IMG/VR virus record: IMGVR_UViG_3300018416_000146
Span: 1-20,844 of that record
Origin: a virus
Direction: 5' to 3' (one strand)
Length of the DNA stretch: 20,844 bases
Of the stretch, positions 2,782-17,188 are shown in pieces. A program made the translations under genes and the position numbers. Each line of letters starts with the position of its first letter. Positions within the stretch are counted from its first letter, which is position 1. The notes under the pieces were generated by a model that was not told the DNA's origin, searched no databases, and was given only the letters and a program-made list of their open reading frames with translations.

Positions 2782-2999
2782 TATGCACTCTCCTTAGATA
2801 CCCATTGTACCTTGATGCCTCGTCTAGCGAGTTCGTTTAGACACTTTTGTCTTTGTTTCGGTTTTACACTAGATTTGTTTATCTCAGCGAATAACTCCTC
2901 TTTAGGTGTATTTTTAAGATAGAAGTGCTGCACTGGTAGTTTAGAAGCAGGAACTCCTCTCTTGTAAACTTTTTGTGATGGTTTGAATTTTGCTGGCAT
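2781..2999 (-). CDS. Conserved-looking basic phage protein, 72 aa
   Basis: First gene of the minus-strand operon, starting MPAKFKPSQKVYKRGV. It has a short beta-like N-terminus, a central YLKNTPKEELFAEIN segment, and a basic helix (KPKQRQKCLNELARRG). The TPxEEL...KPKxxxKxxNELxRRG pattern is one I associate with small proteins of cyanophages and pelagiphages, of unknown function. AGGAGGTGG precedes the ATG. Transcription would come from the promoter at 3136-3164 with a leader of about 130 nt. Confidence 0.7.
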   Translation of the reverse strand: MPAKFKPSQKVYKRGVPASKLPVQHFYLKNTPKEELFAEINKSSVKPKQRQKCLNELARRGIKVQWVSKESA

Positions 3000-3037
3000 T
3001 GTGCCACCTCCTGTTAATAAATTGTTAAAGTTAAAGT

Positions 3038-3060
3038 GTGGAGTCTATCTCATCCTCCAC
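3038..3060 (-). other. Leader hairpin in 5' UTR of early operon
   Basis: GTGGAG and CTCCAC pair across an 11-nt loop in the ~130-nt leader between the promoter and the first gene of the operon. It could stabilise or regulate the mRNA. The hairpin is small, so the functional claim is weak. Confidence 0.35.
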
Positions 3061-3135
3061 TGCCCATTCTCCGTTTGGGGACGCCACACTCATTCAAGTA
3101 GGAAAATGTGGTTTCCTTTTTCTTTTGATACATAT

Positions 3136-3164
3136 ATTATACTAAATTTTGACAGACTTGTCAA
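3136..3164 (-). promoter_or_regulatory. Sigma70 promoter of left operon
   Basis: On the minus strand, TTGACA (3164-3159) and TATAAT (3141-3136) are separated by exactly 17 bp. It points at the operon beginning at 2999, with a start site near 3129. Its -35 context TTCTTGACA and the TATAATATAT extension recur at four other promoters between 4179 and 5017. Confidence 0.85.
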
Positions 3165-3214
3165 GAACTATTTTGAATTAACATAAGAAATTTTGATGTT
3201 AAGGTTTCTGAAGC

Positions 3215-3243
3215 AAAAAAAGAGGGAACTGGTGTGTTCCCTC
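3215..3243 (-). terminator. Intrinsic terminator of the ~960-nt RNA
   Basis: On the minus strand an 8-bp perfect stem (GAGGGAAC / GTTCCCTC) with a 6-nt loop is followed by seven T. It lies upstream of the operon promoter and so ends transcripts coming from the promoter at 4179-4207, defining the 3' end of a non-coding transcript. Confidence 0.85.
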
Positions 3244-3500
3244 GAAAAAACTGTCTGTTTTTTACTTGATGTCGCCATCTACAGAGTGCACTCTGTGTGA
3301 CTGGGCACTTTATACAGATGGGTGTGTTTATGCGCTACCTTGCTGTTAAGTGCCTTCTTGGTAGATTATAAGCATCGCTTCCTCTACCTCAATCATGGTG
3401 GAAGTGGTCATTGGCGTCAACCTAGCACTTCCTCCCACTCGTGTGTGCCGTTCTTATGGTAGTTCACACACTATTCCTTATGCTACTTGCTTCTTTCAAC

Positions 3501-3515
3501 CTATGCTCTCATTAC
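3501..3515 (-). repeat. Repeat unit 1 inside large RNA
   Basis: CTATGCTCTCATTAC on the plus strand. It differs by one base from 3621-3635 (CTATGCTCTCGTTAC), 120 nt away. Both lie in the putative large RNA and may be equivalent loops or internal-loop motifs. Confidence 0.5.
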
Positions 3516-3620
3516 TTGGTGGCGTGGGACTTGCCCTACTACTTGCACACTGAAGTCTAATTGATAGTGTTTCACGCTAAGGTGCCTACTTTGACAGGTA
3601 AACCATGAATCGCCGTAGGT

Positions 3621-3635
3621 CTATGCTCTCGTTAC
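3621..3635 (-). repeat. Repeat unit 2 inside large RNA
   Basis: Second copy of the 15-nt motif at 3501-3515, with one substitution. The flanking sequence is not duplicated, so the repeat looks like a structural module rather than a recent duplication. Confidence 0.5.
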
Positions 3636-4178
3636 ATTGCACGGATATTGCTCTTTATGTGGAACGCCTCGACTGGTCGGTAATCTAAAACTACGCGCAG
3701 TATGCTGGTGGACTCACAAAGCGTGGTTATCTCACACTCCCTGATTGTTTAGTCATAATCTGGTGTCAATTACTGCAGATTTACTGTTTGCACTTCTGTA
3801 ATACTGCTAATCCCGAAGGTCTTATAGTGCCGACACACTACTTGAGGGACGACTCCACTACTCTGCTTACCGCCCTCTGTCAATGTCCGAAGACAAATTA
3901 CAAGGGACTTACTGATAAGGGTAGTTGCCACACTCTTTTACCGACAAGTCAATCGGATATACACTCACTTTTGTTTCCGCAAAATATCTCTGTATACGAG
4001 TATCAAAAACCGCACATCTATCTCATTAACGCGTCCTGTAGATGCAGTACAGCATACGGCAATATTTTATGTGATGCCTCACTTGGCGACTCCTTTTCTA
4101 GGCGAGTGCCACTCCGTAATACAACCTTTTTGGCGTTGCATCTTCCAATGTTTTTGTTTGTTTTCAAAATATAGATAT

Positions 4179-4207
4179 ATTATACTAACTTTGAAACCAT
4201 TTGTCAA
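4179..4207 (-). promoter_or_regulatory. Sigma70 promoter of the large RNA
   Basis: TTGACA (4207-4202) and TATAAT (4184-4179) on the minus strand with a 17-bp spacer, predicted start near 4172. Transcription from here meets no gene before the terminator at 3215-3243. Confidence 0.85.
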
Positions 4208-4352
4208 GAAGAATTTTACATTATTTTCTTGAAGGTGGGGTTGTGTTGCTACCATCAAATTGGTCTGTTATCACAACCCCTGCGGGTTTCTAGCACACTG
4301 TCGAGACAGTAATGGTGCTTTGTTTTCCCGTTTTTCTTTTTTCTCAAAATAT
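4208..4352 (-). ncRNA. Candidate ~145-nt hairpin RNA leader
   Basis: Minus-strand segment between two consensus promoters with no reading frame. It contains ACTGTC/GACAGT nested within AGCAC/GTGCT, and a 9-bp perfect helix (GGGGTTGTG / CACAACCCC) enclosing a 26-nt loop that holds a smaller ACCA/TGGT stem. No T-run follows, so it may be a separate small RNA by processing or simply an alternative 5' part of the ~960-nt RNA. Confidence 0.45.
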
Positions 4353-4358
4353 ATGTAT

Positions 4359-4387
4359 ATTATACTAACTTTTGAGGGTTTTGTCAA
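4359..4387 (-). promoter_or_regulatory. Sigma70 promoter of hairpin RNA
   Basis: TTGACA (4387-4382), 17 bp, TATAAT (4364-4359) on the minus strand. The sequence around it is nearly identical to the promoter at 4179-4207, including the TTCTTGACAAA and TTAGTATAATATA contexts. Confidence 0.85.
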
Positions 4388-4437
4388 GAAGAAATTCGAT
4401 TTATTTTCTACTTGCGTCGCTTTGAGAAGGGCAGAGA

Positions 4438-4509
4438 TACTTTACAGGTCAGGACTCGAACCTGCTACTTTCCCATTGGATGTGCTTCCGTAGACACTTC
4501 TGTAAAGTA
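4438..4509 (-). other. tRNA-like remnant with intact T-arm
   Basis: On the minus strand, CAGGTTCGAGTCCTG forms a textbook T stem-loop (4464-4450). The ends of the 72-nt element pair perfectly over 10 bp (4509-4500 with 4447-4438), and further pairing joins 4521-4514 with 4431-4424. A D-arm-like GTGT/GCAC stem with GG in its loop is present. The distance from the D to the T arm is about 8 nt too short and no normal anticodon arm can be drawn, so this is not a functional tRNA as read. It may be a decayed tRNA, an attachment-site-like tRNA fragment, or a tRNA mimic in the 3' UTR of the gene at 4557-4868. Confidence 0.5.
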
Positions 4510-4527
4510 GATACCCTTTTCAAAACG

Positions 4528-4544
4528 GATTACTTAGGGTAATC
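4528..4544 (-). terminator. Weak hairpin after gene at 4557
   Basis: GATTAC and GTAATC pair on the minus strand around a 5-nt loop, followed by CCGTTTTG. The T-run is short, so termination is likely to be partial, which would let transcription continue into the tRNA-like element. Confidence 0.3.
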
Positions 4545-4556
4545 ACTCCTTGACAA

Positions 4557-4868
4557 TTATTGTGAGATTGCGTCAACCAATCTTTGTAGGTCTTGCTTTC
4601 CTGCTTTGACAAGTGTAGGAAGTTCGATTCCAAAGTGTTCTGAGATTTGTGCTACAAGTTCTGCCTTTGCAACTACTGGTTCGCCAGATTTAGTTGTTCT
4701 AGGTTGTGCTTGGTAAACTCCTTCTCTAGACAGTTTGGCAATGATACTCCTAGTTGTTTTGCCTAAAGTCTCTGCTAGACTATCTACTGTTTCCCTTGTA
4801 GGGGTTTCTGTGTAAGCAGTAGTCATCATTTTGACTTGCTCATCTGTATAATTTTTTGCTGTTGCCAT
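4557..4868 (-). CDS. Two-module small phage protein, 103 aa
   Basis: Begins MATAKNYTDEQVKMMTTAY. It has an N-terminal module (about residues 5-48) with PTRETVDSLAETLGKTTRSI and KLSREGVY, and a C-terminal module (about 66-102) with KAELVAQISEHFGIELPTLV followed by KAGKQDLQRLVDAIS. The N-terminal module is shared with 1-224. The C-terminal module resembles the free-standing small proteins at 5508-5654 and 8416-8589. I recall similar proteins in T4-like and marine phages without a function. Two promoters (4896-4924 and 4989-5017) precede it. The frame stays open upstream to a GTG at 4961 with a perfect AAGGAGG site, giving a possible 134-residue form whose extra codons contain the nearer promoter. 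Confidence 0.8.
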   Translation of the reverse strand: MATAKNYTDEQVKMMTTAYTETPTRETVDSLAETLGKTTRSIIAKLSREGVYQAQPRTTKSGEPVVAKAELVAQISEHFGIELPTLVKAGKQDLQRLVDAISQ

Positions 4869-4895
4869 CTTTCTTTTTCTCCCAATTAAAAGTAT

Positions 4896-4924
4896 ATTAT
4901 ATCCGATTTTCCATATATTGTCAA
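4896..4924 (-). promoter_or_regulatory. Proximal promoter of gene 4557
   Basis: TTGACA (4924-4919), 17 bp, TATAAT (4901-4896) on the minus strand, about 21 nt of leader before ATG 4868. It lies inside the open frame of the possible longer protein form. Confidence 0.8.
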
Positions 4925-4988
4925 GAACTTTGTCTGAAAACTTTAATGTTTGTTTTTTCACTTTGTCCTCCTTTTTCAATATGTGTAT

Positions 4989-5017
4989 ATTATACGCGCA
5001 TTGAGTCCTTGTGTCAA
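4989..5017 (-). promoter_or_regulatory. Distal promoter of gene 4557
   Basis: TTGACA (5017-5012), 17 bp, TATAAT (4994-4989) on the minus strand, predicted start near 4982. The transcript would begin just ahead of an AAGGAGG site and the GTG at 4961. Confidence 0.8.
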
Positions 5018-5132
5018 CAATAAATGCGAATTATTTGTAAAACATCGCATCGGAACTTCGGGGGGCGGGACGCGAAACCACCGACCTTCGCCGCAAATCC
5101 TCGCCAAAAACGCAAATTTCCCAAAATTTCTC
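5018..5132. other. Intergenic, GC-richer stretch between divergent promoters
   Basis: No convincing gene. The segment separates the leftward promoter at 4989-5017 from the rightward one at 5133-5161. It is richer in G and C than its surroundings and contains GGGGGGCGGGA at 5060-5070, which recurs at 5735-5745. Confidence 0.5.
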
Positions 5133-5161
5133 TTGACACCCGCGCAAATTCGTGCTAAAAT
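5133..5161 (+). promoter_or_regulatory. Sigma70 promoter, control region
   Basis: TTGACA (5133-5138) and TAAAAT (5156-5161) with a 17-bp spacer. No gene with a ribosome site follows; the nearest downstream features are a small hairpin (AGTCT/AGACT) and the first 27-bp repeat, so it may make a non-coding or replication-related transcript. Confidence 0.6.
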
Positions 5162-5231
5162 ATAAATAAGTCTTATTATAGACTAGCCGCAGCGCACATC
5201 GCTTTGACACTTCGTTTTTGTACTTTTTAGC

Positions 5232-5258
5232 ATCGTTTCGGTACTGCACTGTCGGCGC
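5232..5258 (+). repeat. 27-bp repeat, copy 1
   Basis: ATCGTTTCGGTACTGCACTG followed by TCGGCGC. Copies 2 and 3 at 5817-5844 and 5860-5887 match it except for one extra C and, in copy 3, one G-to-A change. The three lie only in the control region. Confidence 0.75.
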
Positions 5259-5332
5259 AATGGCTTTTTGCGGGTGTTGCATCGCCCCTGTTTATGCGGG
5301 TTTGCGGCTGCTCTGCGGAGACTTGCCTTGTG

Positions 5333-5351
5333 AAAAAAGATTGAAGAAATT
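5333..5351 (+). repeat. AT-rich 19-mer, copy 1
   Basis: AAAAAAGATTGAAGAAATT; a near copy lies at 5423-5441 next to the first DnaA-box pair. Such AT-rich 13-mer-like repeats are typical of DNA-unwinding elements at DnaA origins. Confidence 0.45.
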
Positions 5352-5362
5352 GTAAAAAGTTC

Positions 5363-5391
5363 TTGACCCCGCTATCGATGTGTGGTATAAT
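5363..5391 (+). promoter_or_regulatory. Sigma70 promoter before DnaA boxes
   Basis: TTGACC (5363-5368), 17 bp, TATAAT (5386-5391). The predicted start, near 5398, lies a few bases before the DnaA-box pair at 5405-5424, so DnaA bound there could block or be displaced by the transcript. Confidence 0.7.
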
Positions 5392-5404
5392 CGGCGCGAT
5401 TTGC

Positions 5405-5424
5405 TGTGGATAACCTGTGGATAA
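5405..5424 (+). promoter_or_regulatory. Tandem DnaA boxes, pair 1
   Basis: Two perfect copies of TGTGGATAA (the complement of the DnaA box TTATCCACA) at 5405-5413 and 5416-5424, 11 bp apart and so on the same helical face. They are followed at once by AAAAAAGATTAAATAAATT (5423-5441), an AT-rich stretch suited to unwinding. Confidence 0.75.
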
Positions 5425-5441
5425 AAAAGATTAAATAAATT
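5423..5441 (+). repeat. AT-rich 19-mer, copy 2
   Basis: AAAAAAGATTAAATAAATT directly abuts the second DnaA box and matches 16 of 19 bases of the copy at 5333-5351. It is the best candidate for a DNA-unwinding element. Confidence 0.5.
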
Positions 5442-5452
5442 CGCTGTGGGTG

Positions 5453-5481
5453 TTGACATACCCGCCCAAAGTGCTTATAAT
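5453..5481 (+). promoter_or_regulatory. Sigma70 promoter of 48-aa gene
   Basis: TTGACA (5453-5458), 17 bp, TATAAT (5476-5481), about 20 nt of leader before an AAGGAGG site and the ATG at 5508. Confidence 0.85.
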
Positions 5482-5507
5482 AATACCATATTGTCAAGGA
5501 GGAAAAA

Positions 5508-5654
5508 ATGCAAAAAGAGAAAAAAGTCGCAAAAACCAAAGCAGTTTTGGTCAAAGAATTAGAGCAAGTTGTCAAAGTCGACAAAGGTTTCCTAAATTCG
5601 CTTGAAAGAGCAAATGCAGAAACAATCAAAAGATTAATCGACATCTGTTCCTAA
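5508..5654 (+). CDS. 48-aa helical protein, free-standing C-terminal module
   Basis: Begins MQKEKKVAKTKAVLVKELEQ and continues as two amphipathic helices ending in TIKRLIDICS. The pattern TKAVLVKEL...FLNSLERANAETIKRLIDI lines up with the C-terminal module of the protein at 4557-4868 (AKAELVAQI...LPTLVKAGKQDLQRLVDAI). So this looks like the second module expressed alone. It has its own promoter (5453-5481), a perfect AAGGAGG site 5-6 nt before the ATG and its own terminator (5659-5686), making it a solitary single-gene unit on the plus strand beside the DnaA boxes. It could compete with or partner the two-module proteins. Confidence 0.8.
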   Translation: MQKEKKVAKTKAVLVKELEQVVKVDKGFLNSLERANAETIKRLIDICS

Positions 5655-5658
5655 GTAG

Positions 5659-5686
5659 AACCCGCTTCGGCGGGTTTTATTTTTTT
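5659..5686 (+). terminator. Intrinsic terminator of 48-aa gene
   Basis: AACCCGC and GCGGGTT pair over 7 bp around a TTCG loop, followed by TTTTATTTTTTT. It starts 4 nt after the stop codon. Confidence 0.95.
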
Positions 5687-5697
5687 GAAAAAAGTTC

Positions 5698-5726
5698 TTG
5701 ACAAGAGCGGCAAAGTGTGCTACAAT
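5698..5726 (+). promoter_or_regulatory. Sigma70 promoter before second DnaA pair
   Basis: TTGACA (5698-5703), 17 bp, TACAAT (5721-5726). Upstream context AAAAAAGTTCTTGAC is close to that of the promoter at 5363-5391, and it is likewise followed by a DnaA-box pair. No gene with a ribosome site follows. Confidence 0.75.
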
Positions 5727-5771
5727 AATAGGGTGGGGGGCGGGATATGCTCGTGGCGCTGCGCAGAGACA

Positions 5772-5791
5772 TGTGGATAACCTGTGGATAA
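5772..5791 (+). promoter_or_regulatory. Tandem DnaA boxes, pair 2
   Basis: TGTGGATAA at 5772-5780 and 5783-5791, with the same 11-bp phasing and the same ACC linker as the pair at 5405-5424, 367 bp away. Confidence 0.75.
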
Positions 5792-5816
5792 GTCGCTCCT
5801 TGACAGAAAGACTTAT

Positions 5817-5844
5817 ATCGTTTCGGTACTGCACTGCTCGGCGC
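5817..5844 (+). repeat. 28-bp repeat, copy 2
   Basis: ATCGTTTCGGTACTGCACTG followed by CTCGGCGC. It is 43 bp upstream of copy 3. Confidence 0.75.
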
Positions 5845-5859
5845 CTGCGGCTTCATCAA

Positions 5860-5887
5860 ATCGTTTCGATACTGCACTGCTCGGCGC
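5860..5887 (+). repeat. 28-bp repeat, copy 3
   Basis: Same repeat with GATACT in place of GGTACT. Its 3' end runs into a GC-rich hairpin (GGCGCG / CGCGCC, 5883-5899). Confidence 0.75.
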
Positions 5888-5899
5888 GCTTCGCGCGCC
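5883..5899. other. GC-rich hairpin
   Basis: GGCGCG and CGCGCC form a 6-bp stem with a CTTCG loop. No T-run follows on either strand, so it is not an intrinsic terminator; it sits between a repeat copy and the Fur-like box. Confidence 0.5.
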
Positions 5900-5907
5900 T
5901 AAATGCG

Positions 5908-5926
5908 AATGAGAATCATTCTCATT
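5908..5926. promoter_or_regulatory. Fur-box-like 9-1-9 palindrome
   Basis: AATGAGAATCATTCTCATT is a perfect inverted repeat with one central base. It matches the Fur consensus core TGATAATNATTATCA at 13 of 15 positions, with the two differences symmetric. Fur is the ferrous-iron-responsive repressor of many proteobacteria. No gene start lies immediately beside it; it is about 120 bp from the promoter at 6014-6042. Confidence 0.6.
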
Positions 5927-5934
5927 TACAAGGC

Positions 5935-5964
5935 AAAAGAAAAATCCCACCTTTCGGCGAGATT
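5935..5964 (-). terminator. Intrinsic terminator of leftward control-region RNA
   Basis: On the minus strand a 9-bp stem (AATCTCGCC / GGTGGGATT, two G-T pairs) with a GAAA loop is followed by TTTCTTTT. It would stop transcripts from the minus-strand promoters at 6249-6277 and 6418-6446. Confidence 0.65.
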
Positions 5965-6013
5965 CCCCGTTTTATATATAATGAAGAAATATGAAGTAAA
6001 TATTAAAAGTGCC

Positions 6014-10245: not shown

Positions 10246-10470
10246 ATGTACGCATATATGAGGGACGAAGAAATGCAAGAGCTTAGCACATATTGGAATG
10301 AAGGCCTTAGAGCCGACACAGTATTAAAAGAAGGGCACTACGGTGCCAGATTCTATGACAAACATGGAGTCATAATTAAAACAGAATTTTATAAAGGACA
10401 TAGCGAAAGCTACGCAGAAGATGCAGCCGAGAACTATGTATTTGGAATAAAAAAGATTGGCATACAGTAA
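10246..10470 (+). CDS. 74-aa hypothetical protein before iscU
   Basis: Starts directly after the upstream stop (MYAYMRDEEMQELSTYWNEG); internal ATG codons at 10258 and 10273 are alternatives because no good ribosome site marks the first. The middle part (GARFYDKHGVIIKTEFYKGH) looks like a beta hairpin and the end is helical. Its 3' end overlaps iscU by 14 nt. Not recognised. Confidence 0.55.
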   Translation: MYAYMRDEEMQELSTYWNEGLRADTVLKEGHYGARFYDKHGVIIKTEFYKGHSESYAEDAAENYVFGIKKIGIQ

Positions 10471-10876
10471 AGAGGTAGTGGACAGATTTGAGCAAGTACT
10501 CAATTCACCTAAGCAATTTAGTGTGGGGCGTTTTGACCCTACAGACCCTACTGTAGCAACTGGAATGACTGGAGCACCCGCATGTGGTGATGTCATGAAA
10601 TTACAACTAAAGATAGACCCAGGCAATAATAGAATTGTCGATGTTAAATTTAAAACATATGGATGTGGGTCAGCAATCGCGTCTTCCACAATGTTTGTAG
10701 AAATGTTGAAAGGAAAGACAATAGAAGAAGCTAAGTTAATTAAAGATAAAGATATAGCGGAGGCCTTAAAGTTACCCCCTATAAAATTGCATTGTTCAGT
10801 TCTAGCAGAAGATAGTATAAGTAAAGCTATTCAAGACTGGGAGAATAAATGTTCAGAAAAATTCATAAATTCATGA
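10457..10876 (+). CDS. iscU: Fe-S cluster assembly scaffold IscU
   Basis: A 139-residue IscU/NifU N-terminal-type scaffold on which [2Fe-2S] clusters are built before transfer to client proteins. All three ligand cysteines are present in their motifs: APACGDVMKLQ (about residue 43), KTYGCGSAIAS (about 70) and LPPIKLHCSVLAED (about 113). The LPPIKLHC loop that binds the HscA chaperone in bacterial IscU is intact. It starts with TTG at 10457; the translated MAYSKEVVD matches the start of E. coli IscU (MAYSEKVID), which supports this codon. No iscS or hscA is nearby, so it would rely on the host for sulfur and chaperones. An iscA homologue follows. Unusual for a phage. Confidence 0.93.
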   Translation: MAYSKEVVDRFEQVLNSPKQFSVGRFDPTDPTVATGMTGAPACGDVMKLQLKIDPGNNRIVDVKFKTYGCGSAIASSTMFVEMLKGKTIEEAKLIKDKDIAEALKLPPIKLHCSVLAEDSISKAIQDWENKCSEKFINS

Positions 10877-10920
10877 AAGCAGGAAGATTAACTAAAGTTA
10901 TAAAGCTTTTCATAAAATGA
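10849..10920 (+). CDS. Cationic micropeptide between iscU and iscA
   Basis: A 23-codon frame (MFRKIHKFMKAGRLTKVIKL then FIK) in the gap between the two Fe-S genes. Its inner ATG at 10873 overlaps the iscU stop as ATGA, and its own stop overlaps the iscA ATG as ATGA. It would give a 15- or 23-residue cationic amphipathic helix. The paired overlaps argue for translational relay, though a role as a mere coupling frame is possible. Confidence 0.4.
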   Translation: MFRKIHKFMKAGRLTKVIKLFIK

Positions 10921-11234
10921 TCGAGGTAACAAATGAGGCGTATACTAGACTTATACAGAAAGCGAGCCAACAGGAGAACTTTGTTTTTCGACTTGGTATT
11001 ACTGGGGGCGGCTGCGGTGGTATGGAGTATACTTTTGATTATTGTAATCAAACTTATACAAGTGATTTGGTACTGGATTGGGGGCGTATAAAATTTAGAA
11101 TCGACCCTGAATCTGCGCCTTATTTGGAAGGCATGACCTTAGATTGGAAAACAAATGGACTTAATGAACAATTTACATTCGACAACCCAAAAGAAACATA
11201 CAGATGTGGATGCGGAGTTAGCATCGGCTTCTGA
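10917..11234 (+). CDS. iscA: A-type Fe-S carrier IscA/HesB-like
   Basis: A 105-residue A-type carrier, the family that receives and delivers Fe-S clusters. It has the three conserved cysteines: TGGGCGGMEYTF (about residue 33) and the C-terminal YRCGCGVSIGF pair (about 98 and 100). An extra Cys follows in DYCNQ. The length matches bacterial IscA. It begins at an ATG sharing ATGA with the micropeptide's stop and is followed by a frame overlapping its last 80 nt. With iscU it makes a two-protein scaffold and carrier set. The host ErpA, SufA or IscA cannot be told apart from this, so the symbol is approximate. Confidence 0.85.
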   Translation: MIEVTNEAYTRLIQKASQQENFVFRLGITGGGCGGMEYTFDYCNQTYTSDLVLDWGRIKFRIDPESAPYLEGMTLDWKTNGLNEQFTFDNPKETYRCGCGVSIGF

Positions 11235-12008: not shown

Positions 12009-12474
12009 AAAACTACTTAGTGGAGTTTTAGCACTCGCACTACTTATTGTCGCCTTTCTATTTTTCACTAACAAAATTGAGGCGGACGAAATTAAATTTG
12101 GATTTAAGAATCCTTCATTCAGTGGTGTAGGTACATCTAGCCACTATCTTACTATTGACTCACAAGAAATGTCAAGAAAAGACGCACTAAAAGCGGAAAT
12201 TAAAGCACTCAAAGATGAAGCTGAAAGAGAGGCTGAGAATAGCACTCTGGCAAGATTTATAAAGAACTTTGAGAGTAGAGTATATGCACAGTTATCTCGA
12301 CAGCTGGTAGACCAGTTATTTGGAGAGAATCCTGCAGAAGAAGGTTCATTTGAATTATTCGATAATCTGATTACATGGACATCAGATGGAATATCAATAA
12401 CTATGACCATATTTAATGAGACAACAGGTGAGACAACTACTATTACTATCCCTATTGGCGACTTTGGTTTCTAG
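11983..12474 (+). CDS. csgF: CsgF-like curli assembly protein
   Basis: A 163-residue exported protein. Residues 1-34 form a signal sequence (MRRKDTKSRKLLSGVLALAL and onward). The mature part has the CsgF features: KNPSFSGVGTSS, matching the NPSFGG N-terminal motif that lines the CsgG pore, then the helical FESRVYAQLSRQLVDQLFGE region, and the C-terminal beta segment ISITMTIFNETTGETTTITI. In E. coli, CsgF sits on the outer-membrane CsgG channel and anchors the curli nucleator. The gene lies directly before csgG and overlaps it by 59 nt, which supports the assignment. The long charged linker (KDALKAEIKALKDEAEREAE) is larger than usual. Confidence 0.82.
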   Translation: MRRKDTKSRKLLSGVLALALLIVAFLFFTNKIEADEIKFGFKNPSFSGVGTSSHYLTIDSQEMSRKDALKAEIKALKDEAEREAENSTLARFIKNFESRVYAQLSRQLVDQLFGENPAEEGSFELFDNLITWTSDGISITMTIFNETTGETTTITIPIGDFGF

Positions 12475-13273
12475 TTGTGCAAACTGGACACATTATGAAT
12501 ATGTGTCTCCTTGTATATTTAATCCAGACGAAGACTATAAAGATTTAGCGACCATTGTAGGAAAAGCGCAATGCTTTTCTGGGGACGCTATTATCGAACA
12601 ACCAGTCACAAAAGCAATTCAAAATGTTCCACAACCATCACGATATCCTGTCGTGGCGGTATACTCATTTAGCGATTTAACAGGACAACGAAAGAGTGTC
12701 GATGGTATAGCTAGTTTCAGTACTGCTGTTACTATGGCTCCCGAAGCATATCTAATAAGAGCACTCAAACAGTCTGGCTTTTTCAAAGTTGTAGAAAGAA
12801 GTGGTCTTGACCATTTAACTAAAGAAAGACAACTAATTAGACAGACAAGACAAAGTTTTAATGATGACGATGAGCAACTTCCACTACTGTTCGCTGGTCT
12901 TATCATTGAAGGGGGTATAGTGGATTATAACACTAATTTATTAACAGGAGGTATGGGTGCTAGATATCTTGGCATTGGTAACTCCAAGCAATACCGTGAG
13001 GACACTGTAGTGGTCTCATTAAGGCTAGTTTCTGTGAGTACAGGAGAGATCTTAATGGAAATCCTTACGTCAAAGAAAATACTCTCTGTCGGAGTATCAA
13101 ATGACTTTTTCAGATTTATAGCAGAAGGCACAGAACTCGTAGAGTTTGAAAGTGGTAATGCAATGAATGAAAGCAAATCTATAGCTGTACAAGCAGCAAT
13201 GGAAACTGCAGTAGTACAGTTGATAAAAGACGGCAAAGAGAAAGGGTACTGGAAGTACTGGGGAGAGAAGTAA
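12416..13273 (+). CDS. csgG: CsgG-like curli secretion channel lipoprotein
   Basis: A 285-residue outer-membrane lipoprotein precursor. The signal peptide ends in a lipobox, LATLVSSC, with the lipidated Cys at residue 21. The body carries CsgG signatures: PVVAVYSFSDLTGQRKS, ASFSTAVTMAPEAYLIRAL, RSGLDHLTKERQLIRQTRQ, LIIEGGIVDYNTNLLTGGMG followed by ARYLGIG, and VSLRLVSVSTGEILMEIL. CsgG forms a nonameric pore that exports unfolded curlin across the outer membrane. The ATG at 12416 has no clear ribosome site and sits in the csgF reading frame, so translation may rely on coupling. Its signal peptide is encoded wholly in that overlap. The length is close to the E. coli protein. Confidence 0.92.
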   Translation: MRQQVRQLLLLSLLATLVSSCANWTHYEYVSPCIFNPDEDYKDLATIVGKAQCFSGDAIIEQPVTKAIQNVPQPSRYPVVAVYSFSDLTGQRKSVDGIASFSTAVTMAPEAYLIRALKQSGFFKVVERSGLDHLTKERQLIRQTRQSFNDDDEQLPLLFAGLIIEGGIVDYNTNLLTGGMGARYLGIGNSKQYREDTVVVSLRLVSVSTGEILMEILTSKKILSVGVSNDFFRFIAEGTELVEFESGNAMNESKSIAVQAAMETAVVQLIKDGKEKGYWKYWGEK

Positions 13274-13986
13274 TGAGAATATTACTCTTATTATTATCCT
13301 TTGGCCTTATGGCAGATAATGAAATCTATATTGACCAAACTGGTAACAATGTTGCCATAGACTTAGAACAGCTTGGCTCTAGCAATATTATTGGTGGAGA
13401 CGATGCAATCGCTGGGACTATGACAAAAGCTATCTTAAATGGTGGCTCTATGACATTGGATATCAACCAGATTGGTTCTACAAATAAGTTTCTTACTGAT
13501 GGTATAATAGGTGAAAACTTTACTGGCTTCTTCGAGTTTGACGGAGATTCAAATACATTCGAGTTTTCTATGGATACTACAGGATTAAACACAGTTGACT
13601 TTGCTGACATCAATGTAGATGTTACTGGTAGCACCAACACTTTTGATTGGGATATCGGTGAGAATGCAGGGGCAAGTTATCTGGACTTAGATTTGATACT
13701 AGACGGAGATGATAACAATTTAACTTTTGATATAGACTCTGACTATTATACTGCTTATATGGACATCTTAGGGGATGATAATACAATGAACTTAACCAAA
13801 ACTGGTTATGGAGCTTCATCAAGTGATGCAGGTTATTTCTACTTAGATTTAGGTGGAAGTGACAATACGTTGACAATCAAACAACAGTCAACACTAGCAC
13901 TTGATTGGCTAAAAATAGAAAGTGATGCGTCAAACAGTAACATTTGTGTTATTCAGTCTGATGGTGGTACAACCACTTCTTGCTGA
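13273..13986 (+). CDS. Curlin-like repeat protein
   Basis: A 237-residue secreted protein with a short signal peptide (MRILLLLLSFGLMA). The body has repeats of about 20-25 residues with the curlin-type pattern of alternating hydrophobic residues and G-S/D-x-N turns: QTGNNVAI, LGSSNIIG, QIGSTNKF, GDSNTFEF, VTGSTNTFDW, GDDNNLTFDI, GDDNTMNL and GGSDNTLTI. Real curlins carry Gln and Asn at fixed positions; here many are replaced by Asp, so it is an acidic variant. It ends with a cysteine pair (NSNICVI and TTTSC). Sitting between csgG and a FecR gene, it is the likely cargo of the CsgF/CsgG pore. Confidence 0.8.
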   Translation: MRILLLLLSFGLMADNEIYIDQTGNNVAIDLEQLGSSNIIGGDDAIAGTMTKAILNGGSMTLDINQIGSTNKFLTDGIIGENFTGFFEFDGDSNTFEFSMDTTGLNTVDFADINVDVTGSTNTFDWDIGENAGASYLDLDLILDGDDNNLTFDIDSDYYTAYMDILGDDNTMNLTKTGYGASSSDAGYFYLDLGGSDNTLTIKQQSTLALDWLKIESDASNSNICVIQSDGGTTTSC

Positions 13987-15028
13987 TATAGGCGAAATCA
14001 CAGAACTACGTGGGCAAGGTGCTGTCATTCGTGATGACACCTTTCCTGCAACTTTAGAACAAGACATTCAACAAATGGATGATGTACGAACAGCTAATGG
14101 GCGACTCGGTATCACATTCATAGATGATAGTCAAGTTCGACTCACAGAGCATAGTAAACTTGTCATAGACGAAGTAATCTTTGACCCAAACCCAAGTAAG
14201 TCAAAGATGAAAATGCAATTTGCAAGTGGAACTGCTCGATTTATTACTGGTAAGATAGGACAGATAAATAAACAAAATATCAACATCAGTACACCAACAG
14301 CACAAATCGCAATTCGAGGAACAGATTTTACTGTTACCGTTGATGAGTTCGGTAAGTCTTTGGTGATACTCTTACCTGATGCAAACGGACTGCCCTCTGG
14401 CGAGATTGTAGTAGCAACTGCTTTAGGACAGGTAATATTAAATAAACCGTATCAATCTACTGTTACAACTGTATGGGAACAGAGTCCTACTAAACCTGTT
14501 ATCCTCGACTTAACACTAGATCTGATAGACAATCTTTTGATTGTATCACCACCAAAGAAAAATGAAGAACTTGAACAAACTGAGGGATCGTCTGGAAGTA
14601 GCGACTCTAGTACTAATATTCTCGATATCGACTATCTCGCTTACGACGGGCTCGATGTAGATTTATTAGAAGTAGAAGAAGATTTTCGGGAACTCGACAT
14701 AGATTACCTAGGAACAAACTTCCTAGAAGATTTACTGGAAGTAATAGAATCAGTAGATGAACTAGACAATAATGAACTTGCGTCAGTTGGAATAGCACCA
14801 GTAGATATAAGAGGTACTACATTCGGCCAAGACGCAAGTACACAGATAACAACTTTTGGAGATGCAGAGTTTTTAACTATAATGCGCCAAGTAAATCAGA
14901 GCGTAAGATTAGATATAAATGGACAAACTGGATATAACATCATACTCGAACAAGATGGCAAAAGCTATAATGTTGTCATTGGCAACGGTTCCGATGTTAC
15001 TATCAGCATCCGTCAATCTTCAGGTTGA
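13925..15028 (+). CDS. FecR-domain exported protein
   Basis: About 367 residues. The signal peptide (MRQTVTFVLFSLMVVQPLLA) is encoded in the overlap with the curlin-like gene. Residues about 25-130 match the FecR domain: GQGAVIRD, QMDDVRTANGRLGITFIDDS, then KMQFASGTARFITGKI and ISTPTAQIAIRGTDF. The next 150 residues are acidic and low-complexity, and the C-terminus (LDINGQTGYNIILEQDGKS) returns to a curlin-like strand pattern. FecR proteins read or pass envelope signals, and FecR-type proteins are, as I recall, common neighbours of CHASE2 cyclases such as the gene at 15404. The classic FecR membrane topology is absent; this one is simply exported. GTG at 13922 is an alternative start. Confidence 0.78.
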   Translation: MRQTVTFVLFSLMVVQPLLADIGEITELRGQGAVIRDDTFPATLEQDIQQMDDVRTANGRLGITFIDDSQVRLTEHSKLVIDEVIFDPNPSKSKMKMQFASGTARFITGKIGQINKQNINISTPTAQIAIRGTDFTVTVDEFGKSLVILLPDANGLPSGEIVVATALGQVILNKPYQSTVTTVWEQSPTKPVILDLTLDLIDNLLIVSPPKKNEELEQTEGSSGSSDSSTNILDIDYLAYDGLDVDLLEVEEDFRELDIDYLGTNFLEDLLEVIESVDELDNNELASVGIAPVDIRGTTFGQDASTQITTFGDAEFLTIMRQVNQSVRLDINGQTGYNIILEQDGKSYNVVIGNGSDVTISIRQSSG

Positions 15029-15419
15029 TATACCTTGGGATTATGAACAGATAAAAGCTGACAGTAAACTACTAGCACAAGAAAAAGAAGACTTCGGCAT
15101 ATATTTAGAGTGGAAAGATGAAAGTACTGCCTTTCAGTGGTATTTATTCTGGACTATACAAGCATTAGATGTTTACTCCACTCAGAGAGGATTAAAGTAT
15201 GATTGTATCAAAGAAGGCAATCCACTACTAGGAGAAAGACCATCAGTAGGAAGAATGGTTACTCATAAGACTGTATTTTTAGCTCCTTACTGGATGTTAC
15301 AACACGAAGGAGTATTCACGAGAGCAGAGATAGATTTTGTAAATTTCTTAGGATCTGCAGTAGTCATTAGTAACTTTAATTTACTAAATAAGGCAAAAAC
15401 AAAATGTACCAAAAGATAA
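14955..15419 (+). CDS. Exported DUF5658-like membrane protein
   Basis: About 154 residues starting at ATG 14955, chosen because it opens a good signal sequence (MAKAIMLSLATVPMLLSASV). That leader is encoded in the overlap with the FecR gene. Then comes a soluble part and two or three hydrophobic segments: WYLFWTIQALDVYSTQRGL, a CIKEGNPLLGERPSVGRMVTH loop, and FLAPYWML / FLGSAVVISNF. The W-x-x-Q-x-L-D-x-x-S/T...EGNPL layout resembles DUF5658 membrane proteins of unknown function. It could take the place of CsgE or a small regulator in the envelope system, but this is a guess. It overlaps the cyclase by 16 nt. Confidence 0.6.
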   Translation: MAKAIMLSLATVPMLLSASVNLQVDIPWDYEQIKADSKLLAQEKEDFGIYLEWKDESTAFQWYLFWTIQALDVYSTQRGLKYDCIKEGNPLLGERPSVGRMVTHKTVFLAPYWMLQHEGVFTRAEIDFVNFLGSAVVISNFNLLNKAKTKCTKR

Positions 15420-17188
15420 TAACAATACTAATATTCATGGGGTTACTTATTTGGAATCCCGGTGTTATGCAGAGACTCGAACTAATTGGTTACGACTATC
15501 TGATTATGAATACCGAACCAGTACAGAATGAGAACATTCTTATTGTAGACCTTGACGAAGATTTACTTAAGACTTATGGGGGATGGCCGCTTCCTAGATC
15601 TTTATATGGAGACTTGATAACAACAACAAGTGCCATACCTGGATTTACAGTATTGATGCCAAACCCCGACCTTCGTGGCAAAGACTATGATACATACTTT
15701 GCAATGCGAATGAATCAAGTACCAACTGTCCTTGCTAGTGCAGCATCGACACAAGTTACTGGGATTAATCCTCATGTAGGAACAGCCCAGTTAGGAGAAG
15801 ACCCAACACCATGGCTATATCAGTATCCAGGAATTTTACCTACAGAACCCACGCTGGAGTCAAAGGCAAAGGGACTAGGAGTAGTAACCGCTACGCCGGA
15901 AATAGACGGGGTTACGCGTCGTATTCCCCTAGTCGTAAACGTAGAGTCAAAACTTTACCCGAGTTTCGCCTTGGAACTCTTAAGAGTCGCCGTAAACGAT
16001 CCTTCGTACCAGCTAAAAACAACACCAGAAGGCGTGCAATGGGTTAGAATCCCAAACTACCCTTTAATGAACACAGATGCGAATGGTCGTATCTTTCTTA
16101 ATTGGAACACAAAGTTCTACAAACAAACAGGATTGGAGTTTCTAAAGAATCCTATAGAAGCTCCTTTCGTCATCTTCGGCACGACTGCAGAGGGTATAAC
16201 TAATCCTGTGCCGACCCCTGCGGGGGCAAAATACCCTCATGAAATACAAGCAAACATACTTCACAATCTTATTACTGGTACTGCTCCTTCCCAACCAACT
16301 TGGGCTACAGGAGTCGAAGTACTCGCAACCTTCATCGGACTATTACTACTCGCCTTTGCCACAAGGAGCGTGTATCTCTCAATCCCAGCACTCGGACTCA
16401 TTGTCGGTGGTAGTTTATATGGAGCCTGGCATTTATATAAATCTTCCTACTTGTTTGACGTCACAGGAATCGTAATAATCTCGGTTGGCTTTTGGAGTAT
16501 TCATACATTCCTGAGTTTCTTATCCGAGTATCGTCAGAAACTTCGAATCAAACAACAATTTGGGACGTACGTTAGTCCGGACTTAGTGAAAAAATTACAG
16601 GAAGACCCATCATTACTGAGATTGGGTGGGTCGACAGAACGACTAACTTTTCTTTTTTCTGATATCAGGGGATTTACACCAATATCGGAAAAATACCAAA
16701 AGAATCCACAGGGACTTACTACTCTGATTAATCGTTTTCTTGACAATCAGACTCAGATAATTCTCAAGCATGGAGGAACAATTGATAAGTACATGGGAGA
16801 TTGCATCATGGCGTTCTGGGGCGCTCCTGTAGCAGATGAAAATCATAAAGAGAACGCAACAGCAGCTCTTTTAGAAATGAGGAAGAGCTTGGAGGAATTA
16901 AATGAGAAACTCAGAAGTGAAGGATTGGATGAAATTAATACGGGAGCAGGAATCAACTCCGGATTATGCGTGGTTGGGAACTTTGGCTCAAGTAGCCGTT
17001 TCGATTACAGCGTCCTTGGCGATTCTGTTAATCTTGCTGCTAGACTAGAATCATCTTGTAAAAACTATGATGTAGATAATGTGATTTCCGAGTACAGTTT
17101 AGTAGATGGTTATGAATACGAATTTCTTGACGAAGTCACTGTCAAAGGTAAGTCAGAGCCTGTAAAAATCTATACCATACGAAAATAG
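15404..17188 (+). CDS. CHASE2-class III adenylate cyclase
   Basis: A 594-residue receptor-like cyclase. An N-terminal helix (about 5-20) precedes a periplasmic CHASE2 domain (about 40-300) with ENILIVDLDEDLLKTYGGWP and the GVTRRIPLVV strand. Two or three membrane helices follow (about 310-370), then a linker and the cyclase domain from about 415. Catalytic motifs are intact: LFSDIRGFTPISE (first metal Asp), GGTIDKYMGDCIMAFWG (Lys for adenine and second Asp), and SRFDYSVLGDSVNLAARLES, whose FDY Asp fits ATP and whose NLAAR supplies the transition-state Asn and Arg. So it should make cAMP. A complete signalling cyclase is remarkable in a phage. It follows the FecR gene. Confidence 0.93.
   Translation: MYQKIITILIFMGLLIWNPGVMQRLELIGYDYLIMNTEPVQNENILIVDLDEDLLKTYGGWPLPRSLYGDLITTTSAIPGFTVLMPNPDLRGKDYDTYFAMRMNQVPTVLASAASTQVTGINPHVGTAQLGEDPTPWLYQYPGILPTEPTLESKAKGLGVVTATPEIDGVTRRIPLVVNVESKLYPSFALELLRVAVNDPSYQLKTTPEGVQWVRIPNYPLMNTDANGRIFLNWNTKFYKQTGLEFLKNPIEAPFVIFGTTAEGITNPVPTPAGAKYPHEIQANILHNLITGTAPSQPTWATGVEVLATFIGLLLLAFATRSVYLSIPALGLIVGGSLYGAWHLYKSSYLFDVTGIVIISVGFWSIHTFLSFLSEYRQKLRIKQQFGTYVSPDLVKKLQEDPSLLRLGGSTERLTFLFSDIRGFTPISEKYQKNPQGLTTLINRFLDNQTQIILKHGGTIDKYMGDCIMAFWGAPVADENHKENATAALLEMRKSLEELNEKLRSEGLDEINTGAGINSGLCVVGNFGSSSRFDYSVLGDSVNLAARLESSCKNYDVDNVISEYSLVDGYEYEFLDEVTVKGKSEPVKIYTIRK

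Follow-up and report, generated by a model that had tools for sequence, protein, structure and literature searches.

A region between a promoter and a terminator

On the minus strand of this phage DNA, a consensus promoter and a strong terminator enclose a region whose product and role are the question raised by the locus. The window, by which we mean the whole stretch of DNA analysed, is an IMG/VR virus record of 20,844 bases, and the RNA unit was analysed on its minus strand. The first-pass annotation had placed here a long ornate non-coding RNA in a phage control region, and the transcription signals, shuffle-like open reading frames, covariation and pseudoknots described below bear this out. 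The unit and its signals are as follows.

3215-4172, minus strand: large non-coding RNA of about 958 nt, its ends predicted from promoter and terminator
4179-4207, minus strand: promoter of the large RNA, TTGACA-N17-TATAAT, matching the sigma-70 consensus at 12/12 positions, with an A/T-rich stretch upstream
3215-3243, minus strand: intrinsic terminator, stem 3243-3222 followed by seven T
4989-5017, 4896-4924, 4359-4387, 4179-4207 and 3136-3164, minus strand: 12/12 promoters, at a density far above chance and kept in relatives

Both enclosing signals had been annotated correctly, the promoter reading from 4207 to 4179 and the terminator from 3243 to 3222 with its seven T. Promoter matches between 2000 and 6000 numbered 20, against 9.5 +/- 3.0 in shuffled sequence, and a span of 1.9 kb on the minus strand contains five sigma-70 promoters that match the consensus perfectly (12/12), each with a 17-nt spacer.

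A coding explanation of the region was rejected. The longest sense open reading frame averages 54 aa across 54 homologues versus 56 aa in shuffles, in agreement with the earlier statement that the minus strand holds no credible gene. The antisense frames are somewhat long (mean 89 aa versus 68 aa in shuffled antisense), their positions do not coincide between relatives, and the 128-aa antisense frame of the window is not common to them. Conserved codons, which had been named beforehand as evidence against a non-coding RNA, were found on neither strand in the relatives. We also considered the large RNA as the 5'-leader of a 72-aa gene just downstream (2999-2781); the promoter of this gene comes after the terminator, and the leader reading was therefore rejected. 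The gene encodes a basic protein and has, besides its own 12/12 promoter, a structured-looking long leader of its own (L020, about 3873-4000). As the gene is likewise present in contigs that show no sign of the large RNA, its product is not established as a partner protein.

Relatives in uncultured T5-like phages

The 72-aa gene led to the retrieval of 80 viral loci. Where enough upstream sequence is available, most of these loci have a consensus promoter (matching at 12/12 or sometimes 11/12 positions) about 1.2 kb upstream of the gene and a second one from which the next unit begins, with no shared long sense open reading frame between the two. The promoter-to-promoter segments represent 48 distinct RNAs of 674-1275 nt, and most of them have an evident intrinsic terminator that keeps its fold although its stem sequence varies. 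Independently of gene context, a degenerate DNA pattern taken from the core of the RNA matched 73 viral contigs, of which 55 are flanked by a promoter, as expected, on one side or both; the remaining 18, where a promoter is absent on both sides, were set aside as chance matches. Both routes combined gave 54 non-redundant representatives, all from uncultured marine phages. As the pattern fixes some letters (TTTTGA, TC, ASATA and AG), the invariance of these letters is partly by construction, and the covarying helices cited below occupy positions that the pattern leaves free or does not cover.

In a 105-kb relative (G001, which contains L020), the terminase is 48% identical to that of Pectobacterium phage My1 and 47% to that of Vibrio phage 234P1, and this identity of about 48% to Demerecviridae identifies the relatives as uncultured T5-like phages. 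In T5, every gene class is read by the host sigma-70 polymerase (PMC7472727), which fits the 12/12 promoters found here.

A covariance model of nt 92-245 found the RNA once per genome in G001 and recognised L030 and L033, neither of which had contributed to it (E about 1e-19 to 3e-20). With the same model, T5 and three other cultured T5-like phages (Vibrio phages 234P1 and D419 and Serratia phage Kamaji) gave no match, and a 13-bit match in phage My1 was dismissed as being at chance level. A blastn search of the core against catalogued phages returned no homologue; earlier Vibrio matches were discarded as two short pieces covering 9% of the query, probably promoters. A stricter version of the pattern had no occurrence in the genomes of 84,980 bacterial and archaeal species. 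Within the collections searched, the large RNA is thus shown to be restricted to phages, and a search of open-access papers found no description of it.

Covariation and the pseudoknotted core

Covariation was assessed with a home-made R-scape-like test, in which a G statistic with average-product correction is compared with a null obtained by replaying substitutions on the tree. The first alignment gave 13 pairs at E<=0.05, 11 of them Watson-Crick, and alignment A1 gave 9 significant pairs, 9/9 Watson-Crick, in the core, while the same pipeline returned 0 pairs in the adjacent coding gene (59 sequences) and 0 in five simulated alignments. When the 78 pairs of the core structure were counted on A1, 90.9% of cells were paired, against 36-46% with the 3' partners slid by 1-3 columns; 50 of the 78 pairs change on both sides, and the covariation score was 0.398 versus at most 0.09 when slid and 0.153 when shuffled. 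As the structure was derived from the same sequences, the slid control favours it, and cleaner evidence comes from the test on the tree. The elements of the core are listed below.

4071-4082, minus strand: hairpin GUGA-GGCA-UCAC at the 5' edge of the core, 94% paired, with UA/AU, GC/CG and AU/UA exchanges
4014-4052, minus strand: pseudoknot 1, hairpin 4052-4048/4040-4036 whose loop 4045-4041 pairs with 4018-4014
3957-4000, minus strand: pseudoknot 2, CUC 4000-3998 with GAG 3990-3988, and loop 3997-3991 with 3963-3957 (7 bp)
3941-3956, minus strand: conserved hairpin adjoining pseudoknot 2, 100% paired, with CG/GC/UA exchange
3817-4011, minus strand: long-range helix closing the central domain, 4011-4005 with 3823-3817
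3826-3839, minus strand: hairpin in which 3834, the first base of the loop, pairs with 3819 beyond the hairpin; 99.5% paired, one position showing four pair types
3740-3773, minus strand: GURAUUGA motif and two-storey hairpin, outer stem 3763-3762/3741-3740, inner stem 3760-3757/3746-3743

Pseudoknot 2 is 100% paired in 37 sequences, with E of 0 to 0.017 in the tree test, and contains the strongest helix of the RNA (3997-3991 with 3963-3957), which is paired in 37/37 and changes on both sides at all 7 pairs. Pseudoknot 1 is paired in 92% of cells with double changes at all five pairs; the RNA of the window is shifted by one column in A1, and its pairs were therefore taken directly from its letters. 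The UUUU/AAAA part of the long-range helix is 99% paired, some of its letters being fixed by the search pattern, and the tertiary pair 3834-3819 is standard in 37/37 with several pair types. The GURAUUGA two-storey hairpin is common to nearly all representatives, including the most diverged groups, and at least six inner-stem and at least nine outer-stem sequences occur, all of which pair.

In group B, a 19-member subgroup, 15 pairs were significant. Of these, 8 are Watson-Crick, and three of the 8 lie in the 3' half (at 500-543, 641-651 and 801-877 of L035); a block of non-pairing signal at 300-319 reflects alternative modules. Covariation thus supports multiple helices both in the core, where the significant pairs of A1 are all Watson-Crick and the 78 pairs are largely kept, and in the 3' half, and the absence of covariation that would have spoken against the initial reading was not what we found. 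The folding energy of the large RNA is modestly low (z = -1.7, 20 shuffles). The structure is real as judged by sequence covariation; folding energy alone would not prove the case.

Individual hairpins of the first-pass annotation fared less evenly. A UUCG hairpin at 3895-3884 exists, but in a hypervariable arm. The second, at 3819-3812, is not supported as a hairpin, as its bases serve the conserved core: 4010-4011 are the partners of 3818-3817 in the long-range helix, and 3819 forms the tertiary pair with 3834.

One U.G pair is invariant (37/37) and at another pair U.G occurs in 26/37, which shows that selection acts on the minus-strand RNA and not on the DNA. This bears on the possibility that the conserved element acts as DNA, being an origin, a packaging site or a recombination hotspot. 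Recombination hotspots too typically show mosaic swapping of modules, of the kind described in the next section, but conservation of strand-specific G.U pairs, a promoter and a terminator on one strand, and covariation that amounts to single-strand folding with pseudoknots make such a role very improbable.

A modular 3' domain built from exchangeable cartridges

Whereas the pseudoknotted 5' core is conserved, the sequences 3' of it diverge by exchange of short hairpin modules, which we call cartridges. Those followed in the window, together with a palindrome, are given below.

3502-3552, minus strand: slot D, CAGUGUGCnAG, then the cartridge, then CCAyCAAGUAAUGnGAGCAUA; the cartridge in the window is UAGUAGGGCAAGUCCCACG
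3590-3614, minus strand: cartridge e, GGCGAUUCA-stem-UGUCAAA
3441-3471, minus strand: cartridge c, CUACCAUAAGAACGG in a GUGUG/CACAC stem
3281-3296, minus strand: 16-nt palindrome ACAGAGUGCACUCUGU, common to the RNA of the window and L008 only, with G-C to A-U changes read from the sequence

The flanks of slot D enclose at least six different cartridges among the relatives. Cartridge e is present in 27/54 relatives at relative positions of 0.17-0.66, and cartridge c in 9/54 at 0.33-0.80, lying within slot D in L003. Terminators are present in the relatives with different stem sequences, and in L035, L110, L131 and L133 the cartridge GUAGUAGGGCAAGUCCCAC is found inside the stem of the intrinsic terminator hairpin. 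Cartridge a (GAUAACAGACCAA...GGUAGCAACA) occurs in the large RNAs of related phages and in a separately promoted small RNA of the window at 4352-4210. As cartridges change slot, terminator and companion RNA, they behave as interchangeable parts, which may bind proteins, bind one another or spread as selfish elements.

Such reuse of small hairpins between slots and in a separate small RNA would be expected of shared binding sites, and the RNA could accordingly be a decoy or regulator, with the cartridges as repeated sites that sequester a host or phage protein in the manner of a sponge, or with the RNA pairing to mRNAs. A sponge needs repeated simple sites, however, whereas each cartridge usually occurs once per RNA; sites of the CsrA type were rejected, being no more frequent than in shuffles (GGA 14.9 versus 14.2 and ANGGA 5.0 versus 4.7 per RNA); and a conserved pseudoknotted core of 78 pairs far exceeds what a sponge would need. 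We consider this explanation unlikely, though the most probable of the alternatives weighed here.

Two further elements that had been pointed out lie in the variable 3' region. The GNRA (GCGA) hairpin is present at 3279-3268, though L008 does not preserve its stem. A shape switch, proposed in the same annotation for the competing stretches 3275-3280 and 3315-3320, is hypothetical. The palindrome of 16 nt at 3281-3296 likewise exists, and only in L008 is it kept with compensating changes; on the evidence of its letters, its GUGCAC loop could pair with itself and form a possible dimer contact.

Neighbouring RNA elements

Upstream of the large RNA, in the same orientation, are two further elements.

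4210-4387, minus strand: small-RNA unit with its own 12/12 promoter (4387-4359), a hairpin at 4280-4237 containing cartridge a, and a predicted transcript at 4352-4210
4440-4507, minus strand: tRNA-like element with T-arm GGUUCGAGUCC, an acceptor-like stem and the constant AAGUGUCUACGGAAGCAC

The acceptor stem of the tRNA-like element changes sequence and keeps pairing in about 15 relatives, and the element may serve as a substrate of RNase P or imitate a tRNA. At 4440-4507 it was not called by ARAGORN or Rfam, and ARAGORN found no tRNA in the loci scanned. The anticodon arm is short or odd, and the element is seen in L017, L025, L110, L128 and others. In other phages, the slot of the small RNA is occupied by a different small RNA.

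The tRNA-like element and the small RNA adjoin the large RNA in the same orientation and one cartridge is held in common, as would be expected if the unit were a long precursor cut into several small RNAs (the tRNA-like element and hairpin RNAs), the full length not being the working form. However, the large RNA does not share its 12/12 promoter with the small RNA, which has one of its own, and long-range helices join distant parts of the core; we regard a precursor as improbable.

Comparison with known RNA classes

To our knowledge, only a handful of natural RNA classes of such size and complexity are known. The RNA has the features by which a large ornate non-coding RNA is informally recognised, namely a length above 500 nt, lack of coding, a promoter and a terminator, covarying helices and pseudoknots. 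No match at gathering score was found by cmscan with all 4227 Rfam models (Rfam 15) in the window or in 8 related loci, and a permissive cmscan of 2900-6000 gave nothing relevant; introns, RNase P, tmRNA, OLE and HEARO were rejected on this basis.

The Rfam search that had been proposed for GOLLD and ROOL found no relevant match, in agreement with the earlier impression that the RNA is not obviously either. The GOLLD covariance model (RF02032) matched 0/11 related phage records at E<=10, with none by cmscan. The ROOL model (RF03087) matched 0/11 related records at E<=10, a silence to be read with the equal silence of the ROOL control genomes, and cmscan of the window gave no ROOL match.

The lack of a match to any Rfam intron, RNase P or ribozyme family also bears on whether the RNA is a ribozyme or derived from one, with a large pseudoknotted core and a variable periphery as in group I introns. 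The conserved core, the exchangeable periphery and conserved unpaired stretches such as GURAUUGA would suit a ribozyme, but flanking exons are absent and the RNA ends at its own terminator, and we think this origin improbable, if slightly less so than a precursor.

Two phage RNAs of comparable length, GOLLD and ROOL, which often lie close to tRNA islands, form cages made of RNA alone (PMC12286853). Like GOLLD, the large RNA is a phage-encoded non-coding RNA of about 0.8-1 kb with pseudoknots and with one conserved and one variable half. The order is reversed, however: GOLLD has a conserved 3' and a variable 5' part, and here the 5' part is conserved and the 3' part variable. GOLLD lies near tRNA genes; the large RNA, also in phages, adjoins a conserved tRNA-like element, with no tRNA called in the loci scanned. 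It differs from GOLLD in its T5-like phages, in a variable part made of exchangeable cartridges, and in having no sequence or structure match. ROOL, found in phages and prophages and often near tRNAs, is likewise large and pseudoknotted, but the RNA described here is longer, has different helices and was not found in bacterial genomes. OLE, HEARO and raiA are also large structured RNAs, but bacterial ones; there was no cmscan match to them and no nuclease or membrane-protein gene adjoins the large RNA. CsrB/CsrC-type sponges share the construction from hairpins in a non-coding RNA and are highly expressed, whereas the large RNA has a conserved tertiary core and GGA sites without enrichment.

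A possible scaffold with docking parts

The large RNA almost certainly represents a new class. It is non-coding and highly structured, is encoded by marine T5-like phages, and combines a conserved 5' core containing pseudoknots with a 3' domain of mosaic make-up. Our main reading joins to this class an early scaffold or particle mechanism with docking cartridges, and we give the statement as a whole a probability of roughly 55%. The host sigma-70 polymerase would make the RNA early and in large amounts. The core may then fold into a stable particle, either alone as a homo-oligomer like GOLLD and ROOL or together with protein, and the exchangeable hairpin cartridges would be docking sites that choose which phage or host factors are bound. 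A particle core with docking cartridges would make the large RNA a structural scaffold or compartment RNA rather than a messenger. Taken by itself, the scaffold or particle mechanism is argued by analogy and we put its chances at about even. The comparison with GOLLD and ROOL is meant as a lead and not as a claim of membership, and the likeness is probably functional, without homology. Against the particle idea, the sole palindromic loop candidate is common to just two relatives. The reading can tentatively be carried further, though we find it doubtful in this form: the RNA would be a third, evolutionarily independent phage RNA particle, with a fixed self-assembling core and mobile cartridges that hop between slots, terminators and a small RNA, so that docking sites differ by lineage and the particle, unlike GOLLD and ROOL, would be customisable.

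Two classes of this size, GOLLD and ROOL, form hollow phage RNA cages. A further class with no relation to them, in a different group of phages, suggests that phages have repeatedly made use of giant structural RNAs, and it offers an independent system for finding their purpose. The exchange of cartridges provides natural variants in which the core and the putative docking parts can be told apart.

Elsewhere in the contig, adjoining genes on the plus strand at 10457-11234 encode a NifU-like scaffold and IscA/ErpA-like iron-sulphur proteins in a phage, and those at 12416-17188, also on the plus strand, bring together CsgG (the curli secretion channel), a curlin-like repeat protein, a FecR-domain protein and a CHASE2 adenylate/guanylate cyclase.
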